Source: Candidatus Competibacteraceae bacterium (GTDB lineage: Bacteria > Pseudomonadota > Gammaproteobacteria > Competibacterales > Competibacteraceae). Taken from it: 64,000 bases of DNA. The stretch is from the NCBI GenBank assembly GCA_003989085.1, contig RXIV01000007.1:1-64000 (forward strand), written 5' to 3'. The position numbers were made by a program, and so were the translations under genes. This document shows, piece by piece, positions 5,453 through 56,497 of this stretch (positions are counted from its first letter, which is position 1; each line of letters opens with the position of its first letter). Under the pieces are notes generated by a model. The model worked only from the letters and a program-made list of their open reading frames with translations, searched no databases and was not told the DNA's origin.

Positions 5453-6613
5453 TCAAGGCCGCAATCCCCGCCAAGCGGTCAACCAGGCCAGTGCGCCAAG
5501 CGCCGCCGCCATATCAAAGATCGCGGCCGGTCCCAGTCCTTGCCACAGATAACCTGCGGCCAGACTGCCCACCGCGTTGCCCGCGCCAAAGCTCAAACTG
5601 CTGTACAAGGCTTGACCCCGGCCTTGCAGGGTTCCTGGAAAGAACTGGTGAATCAGATGGATGGACACGGCATGGAACACGCCAAAGCTGAAGGCGTGCA
5701 GGGTCTGGGCGAACAGCAACCACGGCAGACTGCCGGCGAAATGGCCGATCAGCAGCCAGCGCAAGGTCGCCAGCGCCAGCGCCGCCAGCATCAACTGGCG
5801 TGGCCCGAACCGCAGCAGCAGCCGGGGAAATAACACGAAAAGACCCACCTCGACCGCCACGCCCAGCCCCCACAGCAGCCCGATAGCCTCGCGGGAATAG
5901 CCGAAGGTTTCCAGATACAACGAGAGGAAGGCGTAATACGGCCCGTGGGCGGCCTGATTGAGAAAACAGGCGATGAACAAGGCGATCACCGCTGGTCGGC
6001 GCAGTACCTGTCCAAGCGGCGGCGCTGCCTGGATCATCCGGGTCAACGGCGCTTCTGCCACCAGTAGACTATTGATCCACAGGGCGATAAATAACGCCAG
6101 CAGCAGCGCCGGCACAATGCCGACTCCCCAACCCTGCACCAGAAAACCGACCCCGACGGCGGCGACAATAAAGCCCACCGAACCCCACAATCGCACCCGG
6201 CTGTAACGGTGGGTCTGTTCGCCCAAGTGGTTTAGCGTGACCGCCTCAAATTGCGGCAGTGCTGCGTTCCAGAAAAAGCTGAACAGCAGCGTGGTCAGCA
6301 ACAGTCCCCAATAGGCACCGCCCACCGCGTAAACCCCGGTGAAGGTCAGCGCCGTCGCCAGACAGGCCCAGCGGATCACCCGCATTGGGCACCCGGTACG
6401 ATCCGCCAGCCAGCCCCACAGTGTTGGCGCGACCAGTTTGGTCACCTGCGGAATGGCGATCAGTTCGCCGATCCGTGCGGGTTCAAAGCCCAGCGCCAGC
6501 AAGTACAAACCCCAGTACGGCAGCAATACGCCCAGGGTAGCAAAATAAAACAGGTAAAAGCCGGACAGCCGCAGGTACAAGCGGAAACTGAGCACGGTTG
6601 GGAGAGCGGGCAA
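5453..6613 (-). CDS. MFS transporter, HcaT/MFS_1-like family
   Basis: A 386-residue protein of about 12 hydrophobic helices. YFATLGVLLPYWGLYLLALGF near the start and the loop WLADRTGC after helix 2 fit the MFS_1-like group that includes the phenylpropionate permease HcaT and LacY-like symporters. The substrate cannot be read from sequence. The longest frame starts at a TTG (6613); a GTG at 6595 is an alternative. It converges on obgE with five bases between stops and lies downstream of argB on the same strand. Confidence 0.8.
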   Translation of the reverse strand: MPALPTVLSFRLYLRLSGFYLFYFATLGVLLPYWGLYLLALGFEPARIGELIAIPQVTKLVAPTLWGWLADRTGCPMRVIRWACLATALTFTGVYAVGGAYWGLLLTTLLFSFFWNAALPQFEAVTLNHLGEQTHRYSRVRLWGSVGFIVAAVGVGFLVQGWGVGIVPALLLALFIALWINSLLVAEAPLTRMIQAAPPLGQVLRRPAVIALFIACFLNQAAHGPYYAFLSLYLETFGYSREAIGLLWGLGVAVEVGLFVLFPRLLLRFGPRQLMLAALALATLRWLLIGHFAGSLPWLLFAQTLHAFSFGVFHAVSIHLIHQFFPGTLQGRGQALYSSLSFGAGNAVGSLAAGYLWQGLGPAAIFDMAAALGALAWLTAWRGLRP

Positions 6614-6638
6614 CGCGCTGTGGTTGCTGAATCCGCCC

Positions 6639-7767
<1,129 letters not shown>

Positions 7768-7892
7768 TATAGGTTTCCTAAATAAGTTGTGGTCGCGCCT
7801 AGTCGGAAATCCCCCCTAACCCCCCTTTTTCAAAGGGGGGCAGCCGCGTGAGCGGCGGGGGGATTTTGCCTGGTTCCACAACCCGGGTCGGA
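7768..7892 (+). repeat. Palindromic dispersed repeat, copy 2
   Basis: The order is TATAGGTTTCCT, then GTTGTGGTCGCGCC, GTCGGAAATCCCCCC, a hairpin of CCCCCC and GGGGGG around TTTTTCAAA, CCGCGTGAGCGGCGG, then GGATTTTGCC and TTCCACAAC. The outer GTTGTGG and CCACAAC are inverted. The reverse complement of 15425-15527 matches it closely over the whole left arm and hairpin. Confidence 0.8.
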
Positions 7893-7910
7893 TTTCTATA
7901 TTTGACCAGA

Positions 7911-8723
7911 TCAGGGATTGTAGCGTCCCCGGCAGGCGTTGATCAGGATCGTCAACACCGACAGATTGCCTTTGATGCGGCTGATCTTGGTCGGGACTTG
8001 GCCGGAAGCGGGATAGCGACGGGTGGTGGGTAGTTCGAGACAGCGATAACCCAATTTCGGCGCACGGTACGACAGATAGGCCAGCAGTTCGTAAGTCGGG
8101 AAAATATCCCGGAACGGAGCCACCTTGGGGTCCAGCAGCAGTTGGCGGCTATACGCTCTGAATCCCTGTGTGGTGTCGGTCCAGTGAAACCCGGAACAGA
8201 GGCTCAGCAGCGGCGCATGGACCCATCGAATCGCCATTTCCCGAAGTTTCGGCGTATTTTCGCCCACTCCGCCGGGGATGTAGCGCGATGCCTGAACGAA
8301 ATCCATGCCATCTTGCAGCGCGTTGATAAACCGGGGAATGGCTTCAGGATCGTCCTTGTTGTTGCCGTCAATAGTGACAATGCCCGCATAACTCTGATCA
8401 AGCGCAAACGCATAGGCGCAACGCAGTTGGGCGCTCAGCTTGCCGGGTCCGGTTTTGACCAATAAACCGCGCACACCCTGGTTTTGAAGCGTAGTGGTGT
8501 TCAGCGAACCGTCAGTGCTGCCGCCATCAATGATTAAAATATCCGCCAGATTCTGAATTCCAAGATTCGCCATTCGGTCGAGCAGCTTGCCAATCCGCTC
8601 GCCTTCGTTGATGACCGGAATGACAATACACCACGGCTGACGCTGGCCTAGCCATAAGGCGGTATCGAAGGCGGGCACTTGCCAACTGGCGCGGGTTTCC
8701 GGGGCTATCTCATTGTTCATCAT
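7911..8723 (-). CDS. Family 2 glycosyltransferase (polyprenyl-phosphate sugar synthase-like)
   Basis: A GT-A glycosyltransferase of about 270 residues with CIVIPVINEGERI, IIDGGSTDGS, TIDGNNKDDPE (the metal-binding acidic motif) and ASRYIPGG. These fit the DPM1/GtrB group that loads a sugar onto polyprenyl phosphate; no C-terminal membrane helices are visible. The start is set at ATG-ATG (8723/8720), since the upstream extension overlaps the SMR gene in another frame and shows no homology. It is the last gene of an isomerase-SMR-GT2 run, six bases after the SMR stop. Confidence 0.8.
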   Translation of the reverse strand: MMNNEIAPETRASWQVPAFDTALWLGQRQPWCIVIPVINEGERIGKLLDRMANLGIQNLADILIIDGGSTDGSLNTTTLQNQGVRGLLVKTGPGKLSAQLRCAYAFALDQSYAGIVTIDGNNKDDPEAIPRFINALQDGMDFVQASRYIPGGVGENTPKLREMAIRWVHAPLLSLCSGFHWTDTTQGFRAYSRQLLLDPKVAPFRDIFPTYELLAYLSYRAPKLGYRCLELPTTRRYPASGQVPTKISRIKGNLSVLTILINACRGRYNP

Positions 8724-8728
8724 TGATC

Positions 8729-9085
8729 TCAGCCCACGCGGACGGTAATCAGAATCACGCCGACCATCACCAGCACAATGCCAGCGCCGGTCGTCCAATA
8801 AAAAGGCTCCTGGAACAGCAGCAGCGACAGCATGGCAACGGTTGCCACTGCTCCCGAAGTCAGGATCGGATGCGCCACGTTCAACGGCAGCACCGACAGC
8901 GCGGCGGCATACAACAGGAATGCGCCGCCGTACAGCGCCAGCCCCAGCCAGAACGGCCAATTACTCAATGCGCCAATGGGATCGCTGAGCGAAGGAAACT
9001 GACGCGGCGGCATCATCGCGAGCTTGACCAGCACGCTGGCGGATGCGTTGGCGGCAATGCCGGAAAGCAGAATAAGCCACTTCAT
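8729..9085 (-). CDS. SMR/EamA-type small membrane transporter (possible lipid-linked sugar flippase)
   Basis: 118 residues with four predicted helices: WLILLSGIAANASASVLVKLA, then WPFWLGLALYGGAFLLYAAALS, then HPILTSGAVATVAMLSLLLF, then TGAGIVLVMVGVILITV. The fold fits the small multidrug resistance family and the ArnE/ArnF flippase subunits. Its place between a sugar isomerase and a polyprenyl-phosphate glycosyltransferase favours a flippase role over drug export; this is inference. The ATG at 9083-9085 overlaps the isomerase stop as ATGA, which fixes the start. Confidence 0.75.
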   Translation of the reverse strand: MKWLILLSGIAANASASVLVKLAMMPPRQFPSLSDPIGALSNWPFWLGLALYGGAFLLYAAALSVLPLNVAHPILTSGAVATVAMLSLLLFQEPFYWTTGAGIVLVMVGVILITVRVG

Positions 9086-49285: not shown

Positions 49286-49398
49286 ACGCCCGCCACCCAT
49301 CCCGCGTCATTCTTCGATGCCTTCGCATCCAACCCTTACCCCAGTCCCGCAGATGGGCGCGGGAAGTTGATACCGCTTCTTAACCGGAGGATATGCTC

Positions 49399-51312
49399 AT
49401 GCCAGTCAACAAACGAACGCTCCCGAAAGCGCCTCTCGCGAGGGGAATCAAAGCTGCCTGCTCGGTCCTGGCCCTGACGGCCTGCCTGACTGTGGGTAGC
49501 GCCTGGGCCGCCGACCAGGGACCGCGCCACCACGCGCAGGGTCAGTACGACGCCGTCACCACCACCTATGGGGTGGTCGATGGCGATGAACTGGTCGTGA
49601 TCAGCGAGCGTTTCCAAGTCCCGCTGGACTCTCTGAAGGCGCAGAACAAGCTGACCTCGGAAGAGATCAAGCCCGGCCAGAAGCTGACCATTGGCAGTCC
49701 TGCCAGCGTGACCGGTGGCAAACCCAACATCCTGTTCATCGTCGGTGATGACGTCGGTGTAGGCGACCTCGGCCCCTACGGCGGCGGCGAAGGGCGCGGC
49801 ATGCCCACGCCCAACATCGACCGCATGGCGGCCGATGGAATGACCTTCTTTTCATTCTATGCCCAACCGAGCTGTACGCCGGGTCGAGCGGCGATGCAGA
49901 CTGGCCGGATTCCGAACCGCAGTGGCATGACGACGGTGGCCTTCCAGGGCCAGGGTGGTGGCTTGCCGAAAGCGGAATGGACCTTGGCTTCTGTCCTCAA
50001 GCAGGGCGGCTACCAGACCTACTTCACCGGCAAATGGCACCTTGGCGAGGCCGACTACGCGCTGCCCAACGCGCAGGGCTACGACGAGATGAAGTACGTC
50101 GGCCTGTACCACCTCAACGCCTACACCTACGGCGACCCGACCTGGTACCCGGACATGGACTCGGAGCTGCGCGACATGTTCAACAAGGTGACGATCGGGT
50201 CGCTGTCAGGCAAGGCGGGCGAGAAAGCGAAGGAGGACTTCAAGATCAACGGGCAGTACGTCAACGAACCTGGCAAGCCCGTCACATTGCACGGCGTGAC
50301 TTACCCGGACGGCGTGGTGGGCATCCCGTTCTTCGACGGTTACGTGGAGAAGGCGGCGATCGAATTCCTCGACAAGGCGGCGAAGGAGCCGGGCAAGCCG
50401 TTCTTCCTCAACGTCAACTTCATGAAAGTGCATCAACCGAACCTGCCGGCGCCGGAGTTCGAGCACAAGTCGATGTCGAAGAGCAAGTACGCCGACTCGA
50501 TGGTCGAATTTGACACGCGCGTTGGCCACATCATGGACAAGCTGCGCGAACTTGGCCTCGACCAGAACACGCTGGTCTTCTTCACCACCGATAACGGCGC
50601 CTGGCAGGATGTGTACCCGGACGCTGGCTACACGCCGTTCCGCGGCACCAAGGGTACGGTGCGTGAGGGCGGCAACCGGGTGCCGGCGATCGCTGTCTGG
50701 CCCGGAAAGATCAAGGCGGACGTGAAAAACCATGACATCGTCGGCGGCCTCGATCTAATGGCGACCTTCGCCTCGGTCGCGGGCGTGAAGCTGCCGGAAA
50801 AGGATCGCGAAGGCCAGCCGATCATCTTCGACAGCTACGACATAACACCGGTCTTGTTCGGCACTGGCAAGGACCCTCGCACCACCTGGTTCTACTTCAC
50901 GGAGAACGAACTGAGCCCCGGCGCGGTGCGTGCTGGCCACTATAAGGCGGTGTTCAATCTGCGCGGCGACGACGGCCAAGCGACCGGCGGTCTCGCGGTG
51001 GACTCCAATCTGGGTTGGAAAGGCCCGGAGAAATATGTCGCCACGGCACCCCAGATCTTCGACCTCTGGCAGGACCCGCAGGAGCGCTACGACATCTTCA
51101 TGAACAACTACACCGAGCATACCTGGACGCTGGTGACCTTCAACCAGGTGATGAAGGACCTGATGAAGACCTATGTCCAGTATCCGCCGCGCAAGCTTCA
51201 AAGCGAGGTCTACACCGGACCAATCACGATCTCGAATTATCAGAAATTCCAGTGGACTCGTGAGCAGTTAGGCAAGGGGGGCGTCGATCTCCCGATGCCG
51301 ACCGGGAATTGA
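49399..51312 (+). CDS. Exported sulfatase with N-terminal LysM domain
   Basis: About 637 residues. A signal peptide (ACSVLALTACLTVGSAWA) is followed by a LysM-type carbohydrate-binding domain (YGVVDGDELVVISERFQVPL, then KPGQKLTI). The sulfatase domain has NILFIVGDDVGVGDLG (metal Asp pair), the formylglycine motif CTPGR in PSCTPGRAAMQTGR, GKWHLGE and TTDNGAW. The Cys must be oxidised to formylglycine for activity. I prefer the ATG at 49399, eight bases after GGAGG, to the one at 49393. It probably acts in the periplasm on a sulfate ester of a glycan or aryl compound. Confidence 0.88.
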   Translation: MPVNKRTLPKAPLARGIKAACSVLALTACLTVGSAWAADQGPRHHAQGQYDAVTTTYGVVDGDELVVISERFQVPLDSLKAQNKLTSEEIKPGQKLTIGSPASVTGGKPNILFIVGDDVGVGDLGPYGGGEGRGMPTPNIDRMAADGMTFFSFYAQPSCTPGRAAMQTGRIPNRSGMTTVAFQGQGGGLPKAEWTLASVLKQGGYQTYFTGKWHLGEADYALPNAQGYDEMKYVGLYHLNAYTYGDPTWYPDMDSELRDMFNKVTIGSLSGKAGEKAKEDFKINGQYVNEPGKPVTLHGVTYPDGVVGIPFFDGYVEKAAIEFLDKAAKEPGKPFFLNVNFMKVHQPNLPAPEFEHKSMSKSKYADSMVEFDTRVGHIMDKLRELGLDQNTLVFFTTDNGAWQDVYPDAGYTPFRGTKGTVREGGNRVPAIAVWPGKIKADVKNHDIVGGLDLMATFASVAGVKLPEKDREGQPIIFDSYDITPVLFGTGKDPRTTWFYFTENELSPGAVRAGHYKAVFNLRGDDGQATGGLAVDSNLGWKGPEKYVATAPQIFDLWQDPQERYDIFMNNYTEHTWTLVTFNQVMKDLMKTYVQYPPRKLQSEVYTGPITISNYQKFQWTREQLGKGGVDLPMPTGN

Positions 51313-52455: not shown

Positions 52456-52598
52456 GGTGCTGATTTCGGCATCACGTCCGCTGGTATACCGATGCTCGTT
52501 CCCCAGACCGACATCGTCGGCAAGGTTTCGCTTGCATCCGCATAGGTGTAACTTTGATGGGGTAGACCCAACAGTCCTGTCATTAGCCGCCACTTCTC

Positions 52599-53620
52599 TC
52601 AAGGCAAGGCCAGCCGAGTGCTCATGTCGAGCTCGAACCGTCCGTACGGATTGACGTGCTCCCAGATCAGCGGCGTCAGCGCCGCATAGTCGCGAGGGGT
52701 GAGCCTTCCCTGCCAATGCGGCTGCGCCAGCATCGTTTGGATCATCAGCGTGTTGATGTAGACCATGCATTCTGGATCAGGTGGAGGGCGAGCATGCTGA
52801 TCTCGTGGTCCTCGCGGCGGTTGCTCACCATCTCGCCGCGCCGGGCGAAGAAGACGAAATCGGTCGCTCCGTTCCACTGCTCGACCACGTTGAGTCCCTC
52901 GTTGATCTCACGCCGCAGGGCTTCGGAGTACAGGTAGCGGCACAGGAAGATGGTCTTGATGGCCTTTCCAAGCTCCGCCAGCGCCCTGTACATGGGGTGC
53001 TGCACGTTCTGCCGGGTGAATCGTCGCAGTGTCGCCTCGGTTTTGGCGGTCCCTTGGCGCAGTGCTGTCGTGTATTTGATCATCTGGTCGCACTACTGCC
53101 GGATCAGCTCCCAATCGATCGGTCGGGTCAGAACCAGTTGGAGATTCTTGTAGGCATCGGCCTTGCCAGTTTCCGGCCGGTACAGCTTCTGCGAGTGGAT
53201 AGCCTTCAGCCGAGGCGGCAGCTCGAAGCCGAGCAAGCGACAGAAGGCGAACGCGACCGTGCTCTGGCCGTGCGAATCGACGTACTGGCGGTCGACTTCC
53301 ATCTCGGTGCAATGATGGAGGACACCTTCAATCATCGAGGCGACCTCAGAGGAGGCCGGCGACTTCAGTTGGCTGTGGATACACAGCGACTTGCGCTCGA
53401 CGTGCCAGTAGATCATGACGCGCCGCGTCCACCATAGCGGACATGCCATTGTGTCGTTAGGTTCTGATCCCAGGCATCGAAATGCTTGGAGTCGGATGCG
53501 CAGGCCGTCGTCCCATCTCCCCAGATGGCCGGGTTGCGGGCATGTAGGGTTCCGTCGGCGATGATGGCAATGGCTCGGCGCATCGCCTCGATGTTGAGCC
53601 AGAGCCAGGCGGCGGAGGCG
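52599..53620 (-). pseudogene. Tn3-family transposase remnant (C-terminal half)
   Basis: Read leftwards from near 53600: [20 protein letters not shown] and [17 protein letters not shown], then a frameshift near 53415. Next come [38 protein letters not shown] and [18 protein letters not shown], then DWELIRQ and an in-frame stop at about 53094. [16 protein letters not shown] and [18 protein letters not shown] follow, with a second frameshift near 52770 before [15 protein letters not shown]. The stop is at 52599. Half the protein and the resolvase are absent, so it is dead. Confidence 0.88.
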
Positions 53621-53621
53621 G

Positions 53622-53941
53622 TTCCGGTGGAGGCCTTGCCGACGCTGCCGTTTGATCATCCGCAGATCGTGGAGAAAGCCATTGAGCGGCTGCGCGGGAA
53701 GGCGACCTATTCCTCGTTGCCGGCGTTTCTGTTGCCGTCGGAATTCACCATGAATGATCTGCACCACGTTTATCAGCAGACCATCGGGACGCGGCTGGAT
53801 CAGGCGTCATTCCGGCACAAGATTCTGAAGCAGGACATCATTGAACCGATGCCGAACCGGTTCCGGGGCGGGGCGCATCGTCCGGCCCAGTTGTATCGGC
53901 TGACCAGCCGGGCGCTGACCCCGTTCGAGCGGAAGATCTAG
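53622..53941 (+). pseudogene. Truncated NUDIX/NrtR-type regulator, C-terminal winged-helix part
   Basis: About 105 residues remain: [20 protein letters not shown], then [35 protein letters not shown] and HRPAQLYRLTSRAL. This is the DNA-binding C-terminal domain of NrtR-like proteins, whose N-terminal NUDIX-like domain senses ADP-ribose. The frame upstream of about 53622 is Tn3 transposase DNA read backwards, so the gene was cut by the transposon. There is no visible start of its own. Confidence 0.65.
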
Positions 53942-53958: not shown

Positions 53959-54666
53959 TCAAGCAGTCGATTGCGTCACCGAGCGCGCGCGGTCGAGCCG
54001 GTTCCATTCGACGGTGCGCCGCCGCCAGTGATCGCCGATGTGCTGGATGAAATCTGGTCGGACAAGCTTGGCCCGGGCGATGAGCCACTCCAGAGACTCC
54101 TGGCGAATCACGATCCCCTCCAGGTGGTCAGCCTGGAACCGGCTAGACGCCGACTGAACCAGGGTTTCAAGCTCCGGGAGCGCCGTTTTTCCGCGGAACA
54201 GGGTCGGCGCCACGCTCAGCCCCAAGCTCCGCGCCAGCGCGTCTCGCCGAGCGGTACTCCAGAAGCAGCAGACGGAACGGTCGTAAACATCGAACACCAG
54301 AAACCAGTCGGGAAGATGGTCATAAGCCACCGAATGCCGGGCGGCGCACCACTCGCCAAACAGGATCAGGTTCTCACCCAGAGCATCGAAAAGTGCGTCC
54401 TCGCGTGCGTCGATCCAGTGACCCAGGCGTTCAAACTGACCCGCGTAGGGCGCGATCAGGTATTGCCCGCGATTTTGCGCCCACAACGTCCCATCAGGGC
54501 TGATCGAGAGGCCAAGGTTGGCCCCGTCGAGCTTTTCTTCAATGACGACCGCCTCCGCGAGCAGCGTTTGCGCCTCGGCGGGCGAAAGCACCTTGTCATC
54601 GCGCGGAGTTCCACTGCCGAGCCACGCAAGGTGCGGGGTATGGGGGAAGCGGAAGAAGTCGGTCAT
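53959..54666 (-). CDS. ATP-dependent RNA ligase family protein
   Basis: 235 residues with all the nucleotidyltransferase motifs of RNA ligases. Motif I is EKLDGANLG (AMP-accepting Lys45); motif III is LILFGEWCAARHS (about 101-112), IIIa is WFLVFDVYDR (121-130), IV is EGIVIRQ (183-189) and V is RAKLVRPDF (198-206). It should join RNA 5'-phosphate and 3'-hydroxyl ends or seal nicks. The ATG overlaps the PIN gene stop as ATGA. It is the last gene of the ATPase-PIN-ligase operon. No polynucleotide kinase partner is present. Confidence 0.87.
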   Translation of the reverse strand: MTDFFRFPHTPHLAWLGSGTPRDDKVLSPAEAQTLLAEAVVIEEKLDGANLGLSISPDGTLWAQNRGQYLIAPYAGQFERLGHWIDAREDALFDALGENLILFGEWCAARHSVAYDHLPDWFLVFDVYDRSVCCFWSTARRDALARSLGLSVAPTLFRGKTALPELETLVQSASSRFQADHLEGIVIRQESLEWLIARAKLVRPDFIQHIGDHWRRRTVEWNRLDRARSVTQSTA

Positions 54667-55190
54667 TTGCCGAGCTTCTCCTGATACTTGGCGAGCGACC
54701 ATTCGGGAATGAGCGGTTCCAGTTCGAGGCCCGCCGCCACCAGAGGGTCCGCCCAGCCGTGCCAGTCGCTATCTCCAGCAAACGCAATCGCGCATTCTCC
54801 ATACAGAAATCTCGCGTCCAGCGCGGCGGCCACCATTTTGCGATCAGCACGATCATGGACGACGGTCTGTAGCGGTTCGTCGAGGACGCCATCACCATTC
54901 TCGTCGTAAGGAACATCGGCTAGATCGACGGCGCAAGTGTCCCACTTGTGTCTCACCACCTGGCGACCAAAATCGTTGAAGCCCAGCTTGTTGCGGTATT
55001 CCTGTTCAATTTTGCCTTGTCCGTCGAGAACCAGACGGGAATTCGATGTACTGAATTGGTCCAGCCAAGTCCAAACCTGCATCCGCAACGCCGGGTCGCT
55101 GGGCGTCGCGTCCTTCGCCATCGGGGAATCCACATCCACAGCGCTGGCCGCGATCAAGACGTTGGTATCCACCACGTAGCGAGGCCTCAT
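54663..55190 (-). CDS. PIN-like nuclease
   Basis: 175 residues. The N-terminus MRPRYVVDTNVLIAAS is the first strand of a PIN domain with Asp8. A second acidic site lies in KIEQEYRNKL (Glu62/Glu64), then HDRADRKMVAAAL (Asp113/Asp116) and AGDSDW (Asp140/Asp142). These are the four acidic positions expected around the metal ions of a PIN ribonuclease. The ATG overlaps the ATPase stop (ATGA) and its stop overlaps the ligase ATG. It is not VapC-sized and has no VapB-like partner; the likely partner is the ATPase. Confidence 0.75.
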   Translation of the reverse strand: MRPRYVVDTNVLIAASAVDVDSPMAKDATPSDPALRMQVWTWLDQFSTSNSRLVLDGQGKIEQEYRNKLGFNDFGRQVVRHKWDTCAVDLADVPYDENGDGVLDEPLQTVVHDRADRKMVAAALDARFLYGECAIAFAGDSDWHGWADPLVAAGLELEPLIPEWSLAKYQEKLGK

Positions 55191-56497
55191 GCCGGGCGCG
55201 CCCGCTTTTGCCGTTCGAACATCAGCCGGGCCTGCTCCCGCGTTTCGCCGAGCGCATCGCCGAAAAACTGGTCCGGCCATTTCAGCACCCGGCCATAGGC
55301 ATCCAATTGAAGCTGCTTGAGAGCGGCGGCGGCACCATTGCGTTCGACGAAATAAAGGCGGCAATCGTCTACCCGAACCTGATCCCTTGCCACAAGAGTT
55401 TGCAGACGACGGAAGAGGTGCTCGGAGTGGGTCTCGACGATAAATTGCACCTGTCGCTGGCGACTGACCCCGACGAACAATTCGGCGAGTGCCGACTGCG
55501 CCAGTGGATGCAGGTGAATTTCTGGTTCTTCGAGCAACACAGTCGACCCAGGCTGGGCGAAAAAGGCCAGCGTTATCACCGGCAAGACTTGAGAAATACC
55601 GATCCCTACATCGCGCAGATTGGCGGCCACGCCATCTTTATGCACCACGATTTCATATCGTGTTGAATGGCCCAGTTGCCGGACTTCAAGCCGGTCGGCC
55701 ACCCCCATGCGCGCCAGCCATGAAGACACATCGTGGATCGTCTGCCCTGCCCCCTCGTCCCTGGAGCGAAGCAAGGCGCTCGCCAGGATCGCGTTGATGA
55801 CGCCAGCGCCGTCGATACCCAGTTCGCCCGGTTTGGACTTGTTCCAGACGTAATCCCGTTCAGGCTTGCGGCGCAGTGGCCCAAGATAAGCGATGCCCTC
55901 CAGTTCGCGCCGGATAGCAAGGCTGATGTCCTCGGCTGGCGGGCCTTCCATCGCGAGCAATTGAATGGCCTCGGCAGGCAGCGCAATCGAGCGTTCCGGT
56001 GCGTAAGCCCGACTCTTGCCGCGAGGCTGTAATTCCTCGTCGACGAAGAGGGAATAGGCGCCCTTGTCGCGTCGAACGGCGCGGAATTTATGCGGGCCGG
56101 TACACAGGATGAGTTCCTGAATGACAGCCGCTCCAGACGAGGTCATGCCGTAGATCGCCGTGAACTCGCCGCTATCCACTCGCTGCTTTCCATCAGGCTG
56201 GCTCCCTGGTGGTCGCTGAAACTGAAATCCGATTTCAAATTGACGCGGTGAGGCGCCGTGGGTCAGCACGTCATTGAAGTGACCGAAATTGAAATAATCA
56301 TTGACCTCGTCGCCTCCCAGATTGAGATGGATGCGGCGATCCGGCGAGGCGGCGGTTTGCTTGAGCAGCAGCAGCGCCTGCAATAGCGAAGATTTACCGG
56401 AGGAATTGGTTCCTAGGAGCATCGTGATGGGCGTTAACTCAACATCGATACGGTCTCGCCATGCCTTGAAGTTCTTGAGCGTCAATTTGGTAAACAT
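55187..56497 (-). CDS. AAA ATPase of the DUF3696/SMC-like (AAA_15) type
   Basis: 436 residues. KLTLKNFKAWRD and the Walker A GTNSSGKSSLLQ (about 29-40) mark an ABC/SMC-like ATPase. YLGPLRRKPERDY (205-216), the signature DVGIGISQVLP, Walker B TVLLEEPEIHLHP (about 319-331) and the switch His in ETHSEHLFRRL follow. The C-terminal YFVERNGAAA and WPDQFFGD are the DUF3696 region. No TOPRIM or coiled-coil arm of length is visible. AAGGAGTCCTCGCA precedes the ATG at 56497, which fixes the start. Such ATPases are common sensors in anti-phage systems. Confidence 0.85.
   Translation of the reverse strand: MFTKLTLKNFKAWRDRIDVELTPITMLLGTNSSGKSSLLQALLLLKQTAASPDRRIHLNLGGDEVNDYFNFGHFNDVLTHGASPRQFEIGFQFQRPPGSQPDGKQRVDSGEFTAIYGMTSSGAAVIQELILCTGPHKFRAVRRDKGAYSLFVDEELQPRGKSRAYAPERSIALPAEAIQLLAMEGPPAEDISLAIRRELEGIAYLGPLRRKPERDYVWNKSKPGELGIDGAGVINAILASALLRSRDEGAGQTIHDVSSWLARMGVADRLEVRQLGHSTRYEIVVHKDGVAANLRDVGIGISQVLPVITLAFFAQPGSTVLLEEPEIHLHPLAQSALAELFVGVSRQRQVQFIVETHSEHLFRRLQTLVARDQVRVDDCRLYFVERNGAAAALKQLQLDAYGRVLKWPDQFFGDALGETREQARLMFERQKRARPA

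Follow-up and report, generated by a model that had tools for sequence, protein, structure and literature searches.

Within the 64,000-nucleotide stretch of DNA analyzed here (the window), an operon of three minus-strand genes was found at positions 53959–56497, in the order ATPase, PIN-fold protein and RNA ligase (table 1). An earlier note, made from the DNA letters, had described two ATGA overlaps joining these genes, and its coordinates proved exact. The same 4-base overlap occurs at the ATPase–PIN junction in 36 of 65 relatives and at the PIN–ligase junction in 25 of 75. A promoter scan gave no signal above shuffles.

Table 1. Features of the ATPase–PIN–RNA ligase operon and its neighbors in the window.
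Feature	Position	Strand	Description
DUF3696 ATPase gene	55187..56497	minus	436 aa; ABC/SMC-type; PADLOC HEC-03B (3e-88); Pfam AAA_15, AAA_21, DUF3696
PIN-fold gene	54663..55190	minus	175 aa; predicted metal-dependent endoribonuclease; PADLOC HEC-03A
RNA ligase gene	53959..54666	minus	235 aa; PF09414, nucleotidyltransferase domain only, active-site Lys45; ATP-dependent
ATGA stop/start overlap, ATPase–PIN	55187..55190	minus	Read from sequence
ATGA stop/start overlap, PIN–ligase	54663..54666	minus	Read from sequence
Truncated NrtR-type regulator, winged-helix part only	53486..53941	plus	Convergent neighbor; outside the system
Tn3-family transposase remnant	52559..53598	minus	Removed the NrtR 5' part; outside the system; family name from translation

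The operon lies between nifA and the NrtR/Tn3 remnants and has no methylase neighbor. The Tn3-family remnant, which contains several stop codons and shares 93% identity with a copy at another place in the same-genus genome G026, has cut off the 5' part of NrtR, a gene that is intact in same-genus genomes; the remnant and the truncated regulator are fused over 52559–53941. In one of these genomes (G027), a 65-base PIN fragment lies beside NrtR, which is intact there, and a transposase gene is close by, indicating that the operon was present at this place in the common ancestor and has decayed there. Two others (G026 and G028) have NrtR and lack the operon. The Tn3 scar and the truncated gene which the earlier note had taken as signs of a mobile setting are both real, but they are local accidents. 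Elsewhere in the window (49393–51312), a sulfatase carries an N-terminal LysM domain, which is an unusual combination.

The ATPase matches AAA_15/AAA_21 and, at its C-terminus, DUF3696 (5e-10). Its Walker A, Walker B and His residues are invariant or nearly so in 63 relatives (Walker A G29/G34/K35/S36; Walker B region E323, E326/H328/H330; H357). At the family level, PADLOC search showed a resemblance to AriA.

No Pfam match was found for the PIN protein, and a PDB sequence search with it returned chance matches only. Its AlphaFold model (pLDDT 94.4) has VapC, HARP/PRORP, AF0591 and other PIN proteins as best-ranked structural neighbors, each of them individually weak (E 0.04–0.3). Profile alignment against VapC from related genomes (hhalign) gave 94.5% probability over 46 columns, compared with 0.1–0.3% for two unrelated control profiles. 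Four acidic residues (D8, E64, D113 and D116) do not vary among 65 homologs, and D140 is always Asp or Glu. In addition, the PADLOC profile HEC-03A is matched by the window protein (5e-8) and by all 65 homologs. The fold scores are weak and the profile match and residue pattern are good; together they point to a PIN domain with a conserved acidic tetrad, as the earlier reading of a nuclease-type fold had it. PIN RNases are expected to leave products with a 5'-phosphate and a 3'-OH, ends of the kind that Rnl-type ligases can seal without further processing. PIN RNases are metal dependent, and those of the VapC group act on tRNA or rRNA, in most cases at one or two positions (PMC5408214).

The third protein scores well above the gathering cut-off of PF09414 (110 bits vs. 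27; 2e-31). Its predicted structure (pLDDT 91.8) is closest to Naegleria Rnl, the archaeal RNA ligase 2vug, TbREL1 and T4 Rnl2, and DNA ligases come lower in the ranking than RNA ligases. Motifs I, III, IIIa, IV and V, all of which had been named in the earlier note, are invariant in 53 homologs (K45, D47, G48, E105, F125-D126, E183-G184, R198 and K200). These features place it in the T4-type RNA ligase family. The 235 residues comprise the nucleotidyltransferase domain alone, the C-terminal domain being absent, and the sequence is far more conserved than that of PIN (median identity 61% vs. 31%). Both properties would suit an enzyme that does not seal but transfers adenylate to RNA 5' ends or to the PIN/ATPase proteins, as a regulator or as part of the effector. 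However, the RNA-ligase motifs are all intact and the nearest folds are RNA-sealing enzymes. Moreover, nearly identical ligases occur next to very different PINs, which speaks against a substrate that is a protein. We therefore regard a non-sealing role as unlikely.

Another possibility is that the PIN protein cuts DNA or has an inactive fold, and that the operon acts on DNA. PIN-like folds include flap nucleases, the structural scores are weak, and DNA methylases are found near many related operons (see below). On the other hand, the partner belongs to an RNA ligase family, the acidic site is conserved, and the nearest matches are the VapC and HARP RNases; this reading appears very improbable.

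To see how often the three genes occur together, about 85,000 genomes were scanned with a ligase profile, which yielded at least 550 relatives. Among the best 80, the PIN gene is immediately upstream of the ligase in 73 and the complete ATPase–PIN–ligase order is present in 62. An independent sample of 398 Pseudomonadota genomes contained 11 full-length close ligases (the window's included), every one of them in the trio order. Chance adjacency was rejected on these counts, and the trio is a real unit, found together in most close relatives when sought by profile as the earlier note had advised. The same arrangement occurs in Proteobacteria, Verrucomicrobiota and Actinomycetota; plasmids of Aeromonas, Azotobacter, Tistrella and Rhodococcus carry it, as do three viral contigs. 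Its distribution is patchy (about 3% of genomes).

Searches starting from PIN gave a similar picture. In a class sample of 369 genomes, six were positive and four of these had the ligase; in the Acidovorax soli family the ligase was present in 13 of 15 (1 of the 13 split across two contigs), the remainder having ATPase and PIN alone; these fractions lean towards the trio because the PIN profile was built from ligase-linked copies. The HEC-03A model, which was built by others, found five of the same six class genomes and nothing further, and missed only the window's own copy. Searches of genome contigs, plasmids and viral contigs with the PIN sequence as query returned nothing useful, as PIN diverges too fast.

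The ATPase–PIN pair can do without the ligase, since loci with both of these genes and no ligase exist (L012, L029, L030, L171 and L179). Nine loci have PIN without the ATPase, and the ligase is kept in all nine; they were found through the ligase, so that a PIN gene alone there would have been missed. Eight of them adjoin gspA-gspB in Burkholderiales (L035, L041, L061, L063, L078, L079, L080 and L103) and form, together with L082, one supported clade in the ligase tree, possibly a domesticated form. Two ligase copies (L076 and L093) are apparently orphans.

Comparison with defence catalogs showed that part of the system is already listed. The window ATPase matches HEC-03B and the adjacent PIN protein matches HEC-03A of PADLOC, whereas the ligase has no PADLOC match. 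Thus, the earlier view that the trio is not a described system does not hold for the ATPase–PIN pair, which is a listed, little-studied candidate phage-defence pair, but may hold for the ligase, which is outside that model. HEC stands for "Hma-embedded candidate", a term from a preprint (Payne et al. 2024; 10.1101/2024.01.29.577857) as cited in PMC12988326; the latter describes several HECs as antiviral and names HEC-06. Nothing on HEC-03 activity was found in the literature, and no paper found names the trio; coverage of preprints and subscription papers was thin, which makes both weak evidence of absence. Two differences from HEC-03 should be noted. The PADLOC model has no RNA ligase, whereas here and in most relatives the third overlapping gene is one. 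In addition, the window copy lies outside any Hma locus, although such embedding is how HEC-03 was found and is not necessarily required.

Some relatives lie in Hma-type loci (e.g., L235, L092 and L012). Of 55 related loci whose upstream flank reaches 6.5 kb or more, 22 (about 40%) have an Hma-type or type I methylase, consistent with the HEC name. A PADLOC "HNH" gene is directly 3' of the ligase in 14 of 76 loci, and PADLOC and Pfam searches of 101 neighbor genes, for which there was no matched control set, gave matches to type I methylase/specificity proteins, HNH and argonaute. In a genome of the same family (G024; L235), the trio is located inside a helicase-methylase locus. That locus also contains a second, different PIN-like gene between the helicase and the methylase (L235:15066–15491).

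The new and unexpected feature of these loci is the exchange of modules, in which PIN alone or ATPase and PIN together are replaced while the ligase and the flanks stay. Pairwise identities over 62 trios are strongly correlated between ATPase and PIN (r = 0.86), whereas the correlation of the ligase with either is about 0.2. Because the 80 loci were picked for their similar ligases, the correlation of the ligase is biased downwards; the exchange is therefore argued from the ligase tree and from in-place swaps. PIN proteins fall into three deep classes, between which PIN identity is 22–33% and ATPase identity 31–47%; ligase identity is about 61% both between and within these classes. In a quick ligase tree the PIN classes interleave, and well-supported branches force at least four changes for the class of the window.

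Swaps in place were observed at several levels. Loci L070 and L073 share flanking DNA and have 92% identical ATPases and 95% identical ligases, but their PINs are only 32% identical, indicating that PIN alone was replaced; in L070, L073 and L089 (about 7420–8010) the PIN gene alone has been exchanged between near-identical ATPase and ligase genes. Flanks are also shared by L067 and L090, whose ligases are 85% identical, whereas their ATPases are 37% and their PINs 25% identical. L057 and L092 share a methylase gene and the ligase; L092 has ATPase–PIN, and L057 has instead PD-T4-4 A and B (5e-203 and 2e-93), a named anti-phage pair, followed by an RNA ligase of the same type inside a helicase-methylase locus (5975–8741). 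Ligases of this type also follow PDC-S46 (an AAA_13 ATPase; 1e-212), preceded by a DNA methylase (L043:1453–4422), and MqsR–MqsA–SecB-like chaperone, an RNase toxin system, adjoining type I methylase/specificity genes (L101:2422–4586). The swap with PD-T4-4, together with Hma and type I methylase neighbors, conjugative plasmids and viral contigs, bear out the mobile defence setting that had been suggested.

Ligase and PIN show no co-evolution, and so nothing here implies that the two make a specific contact. The same lack of co-variation, the company of PD-T4-4, PDC-S46 and MqsRA, and the two apparently orphan copies would be expected if the ligase guards host RNA against phage or foreign nucleases, or serves general RNA repair, and is merely co-mobilized with ATPase–PIN in defence islands. 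However, in the unbiased sample every close full-length ligase is the third gene of a trio, 4-base overlaps are common, and the PIN–ligase pair persists even where the ATPase is missing. We consider such an independent role unlikely, though somewhat less so than the other alternatives. A housekeeping function, in which PIN and ligase cut and join RNA as HARP and Rnl3 may do (PMC12153264), would account for the Burkholderiales clade with PIN–ligase only beside gspAB (8 of 9 loci). This is hard to reconcile with the patchy distribution, the presence on plasmids and viral contigs, the decay of the operon in G027, the methylase islands and the exchange with PD-T4-4, and we judge it quite unlikely.

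A reasonable hypothesis, which we hold at roughly even odds, is that the operon is an HEC-03-type defence module equipped with its own RNA ligase, in which an ATPase-gated PIN RNase makes cuts that can be sealed without end-healing, so that arrest of translation is reversible. The ATPase would act, like those of PrrC and PARIS, as a sensor or gate keeping PIN inactive until a phage or stress trigger leads it to license PIN, which may then cut cellular RNA, probably tRNA or rRNA, and stop translation. The cut ends would carry 5'-phosphate and 3'-OH and could be joined directly by the Rnl-type ligase; this would explain the lack of a kinase or phosphatase gene in the operon, in contrast to T4 Pnk/Rnl1 (PMC3506569) and Pnkp1–Rnl–Hen1 (PMC4411300). 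The ligase might thereby set a damage threshold, mending leaky or transient cleavage so that the cell survives, and being overwhelmed once PIN is fully active. The co-variation of ATPase and PIN fits direct contact between these partners. That the ligase is retained while the RNase changes would be natural for an enzyme whose substrate is an RNA end and not one particular protein, and the persistence of PIN–ligase pairs without the ATPase fits mending of leaky or transient cutting. Published precedents exist for RNA ligases that reverse programmed RNA cutting or occur alongside it: T4 Pnk/Rnl1 counters PrrC (PMC3506569), RtcB reverses MazF cuts (PMC5408214), and the protein-only RNase P HARP is linked to Rnl3 (PMC12153264). 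Several points weigh against this model. ATPase–PIN pairs also occur without a ligase; MqsR, a member of the RelE superfamily (PMC5408214), should produce ends that need healing before Rnl can act on them; the ligase does not co-evolve with PIN; the window copy has no methylase neighbor; and the individual PIN structural matches are weak. The earlier note had offered self-rescue or defence against phage nucleases as roles of the ligase; its observations were confirmed and its interpretation is partly supported. Of the two roles, resealing of the operon's own cuts would fit better than countering phage nucleases.

The proposed module resembles several known systems without belonging to them. 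In PrrC/RloC an SMC-like ATPase also gates an RNase, PrrC lies beside restriction-modification genes, and RNA ligases affect the outcome; however, these are single polypeptides with a HEPN RNase, and the ligase is that of the phage (T4 Rnl1) rather than of a host operon. Membership was rejected because ATPase and nuclease are here in separate genes and the nuclease is PIN, not HEPN. PARIS (AriA–AriB) likewise combines an ABC ATPase with a separate nuclease effector, but AriB is a Toprim nuclease and PARIS has no ligase; with PIN as partner and no AriB match, it was also rejected. In HARP–Rnl3, a gene for a PIN-related RNase adjoins one for an ATP-dependent RNA ligase (PMC12153264). That ligase is of the Rnl3 family (TIGR01209/PF18330), the genes are usually not co-linear, have no ATPase and are not considered defence; the window ligase reaches 22.5 bits against TIGR01209 (cut-off 136.9), and assignment to this system was rejected. 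Pnkp1–Rnl–Hen1 contains a bacterial RNA ligase repairing ribotoxin cuts, but it requires end-healing and methylating partners, and that operon, as described, has no toxin (PMC4411300). VapBC shares the PIN-domain RNase. It was rejected because the genes here abut by 4-base overlaps, leaving no room for a VapB antitoxin; control appears to be exerted by the ATPase (and the ligase) instead.

A broader and more tentative proposal, to which we give somewhat less than an even chance, is that these loci are antidote cassettes, in which a stable ligase sits beside an exchangeable slot for RNase-type effectors (deep PIN classes with their ATPases, PD-T4-4, PDC-S46 and MqsRA). In this way bacteria would carry their own means to "undo" abortive RNA cleavage, a mirror image of what phage T4 does with Rnl1.

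RNA ligases in phage–host conflict are best known as a phage weapon, as when T4 Rnl1 undoes PrrC. If the hypothesis is true, a host operon with a predicted RNA cutter and sealer makes reversible abortive infection testable by a point mutation of Lys45. In addition, the conserved ligase beside exchangeable effectors offers a handle for finding further RNase effectors, by inspection of the genes upstream of the ligase. A separate family of RNA ligases of about 300 amino acids, followed by a gene for an HD-domain-like protein (L022–L024 and L249–L251), was excluded from the analysis and is possibly another RNA repair pair.
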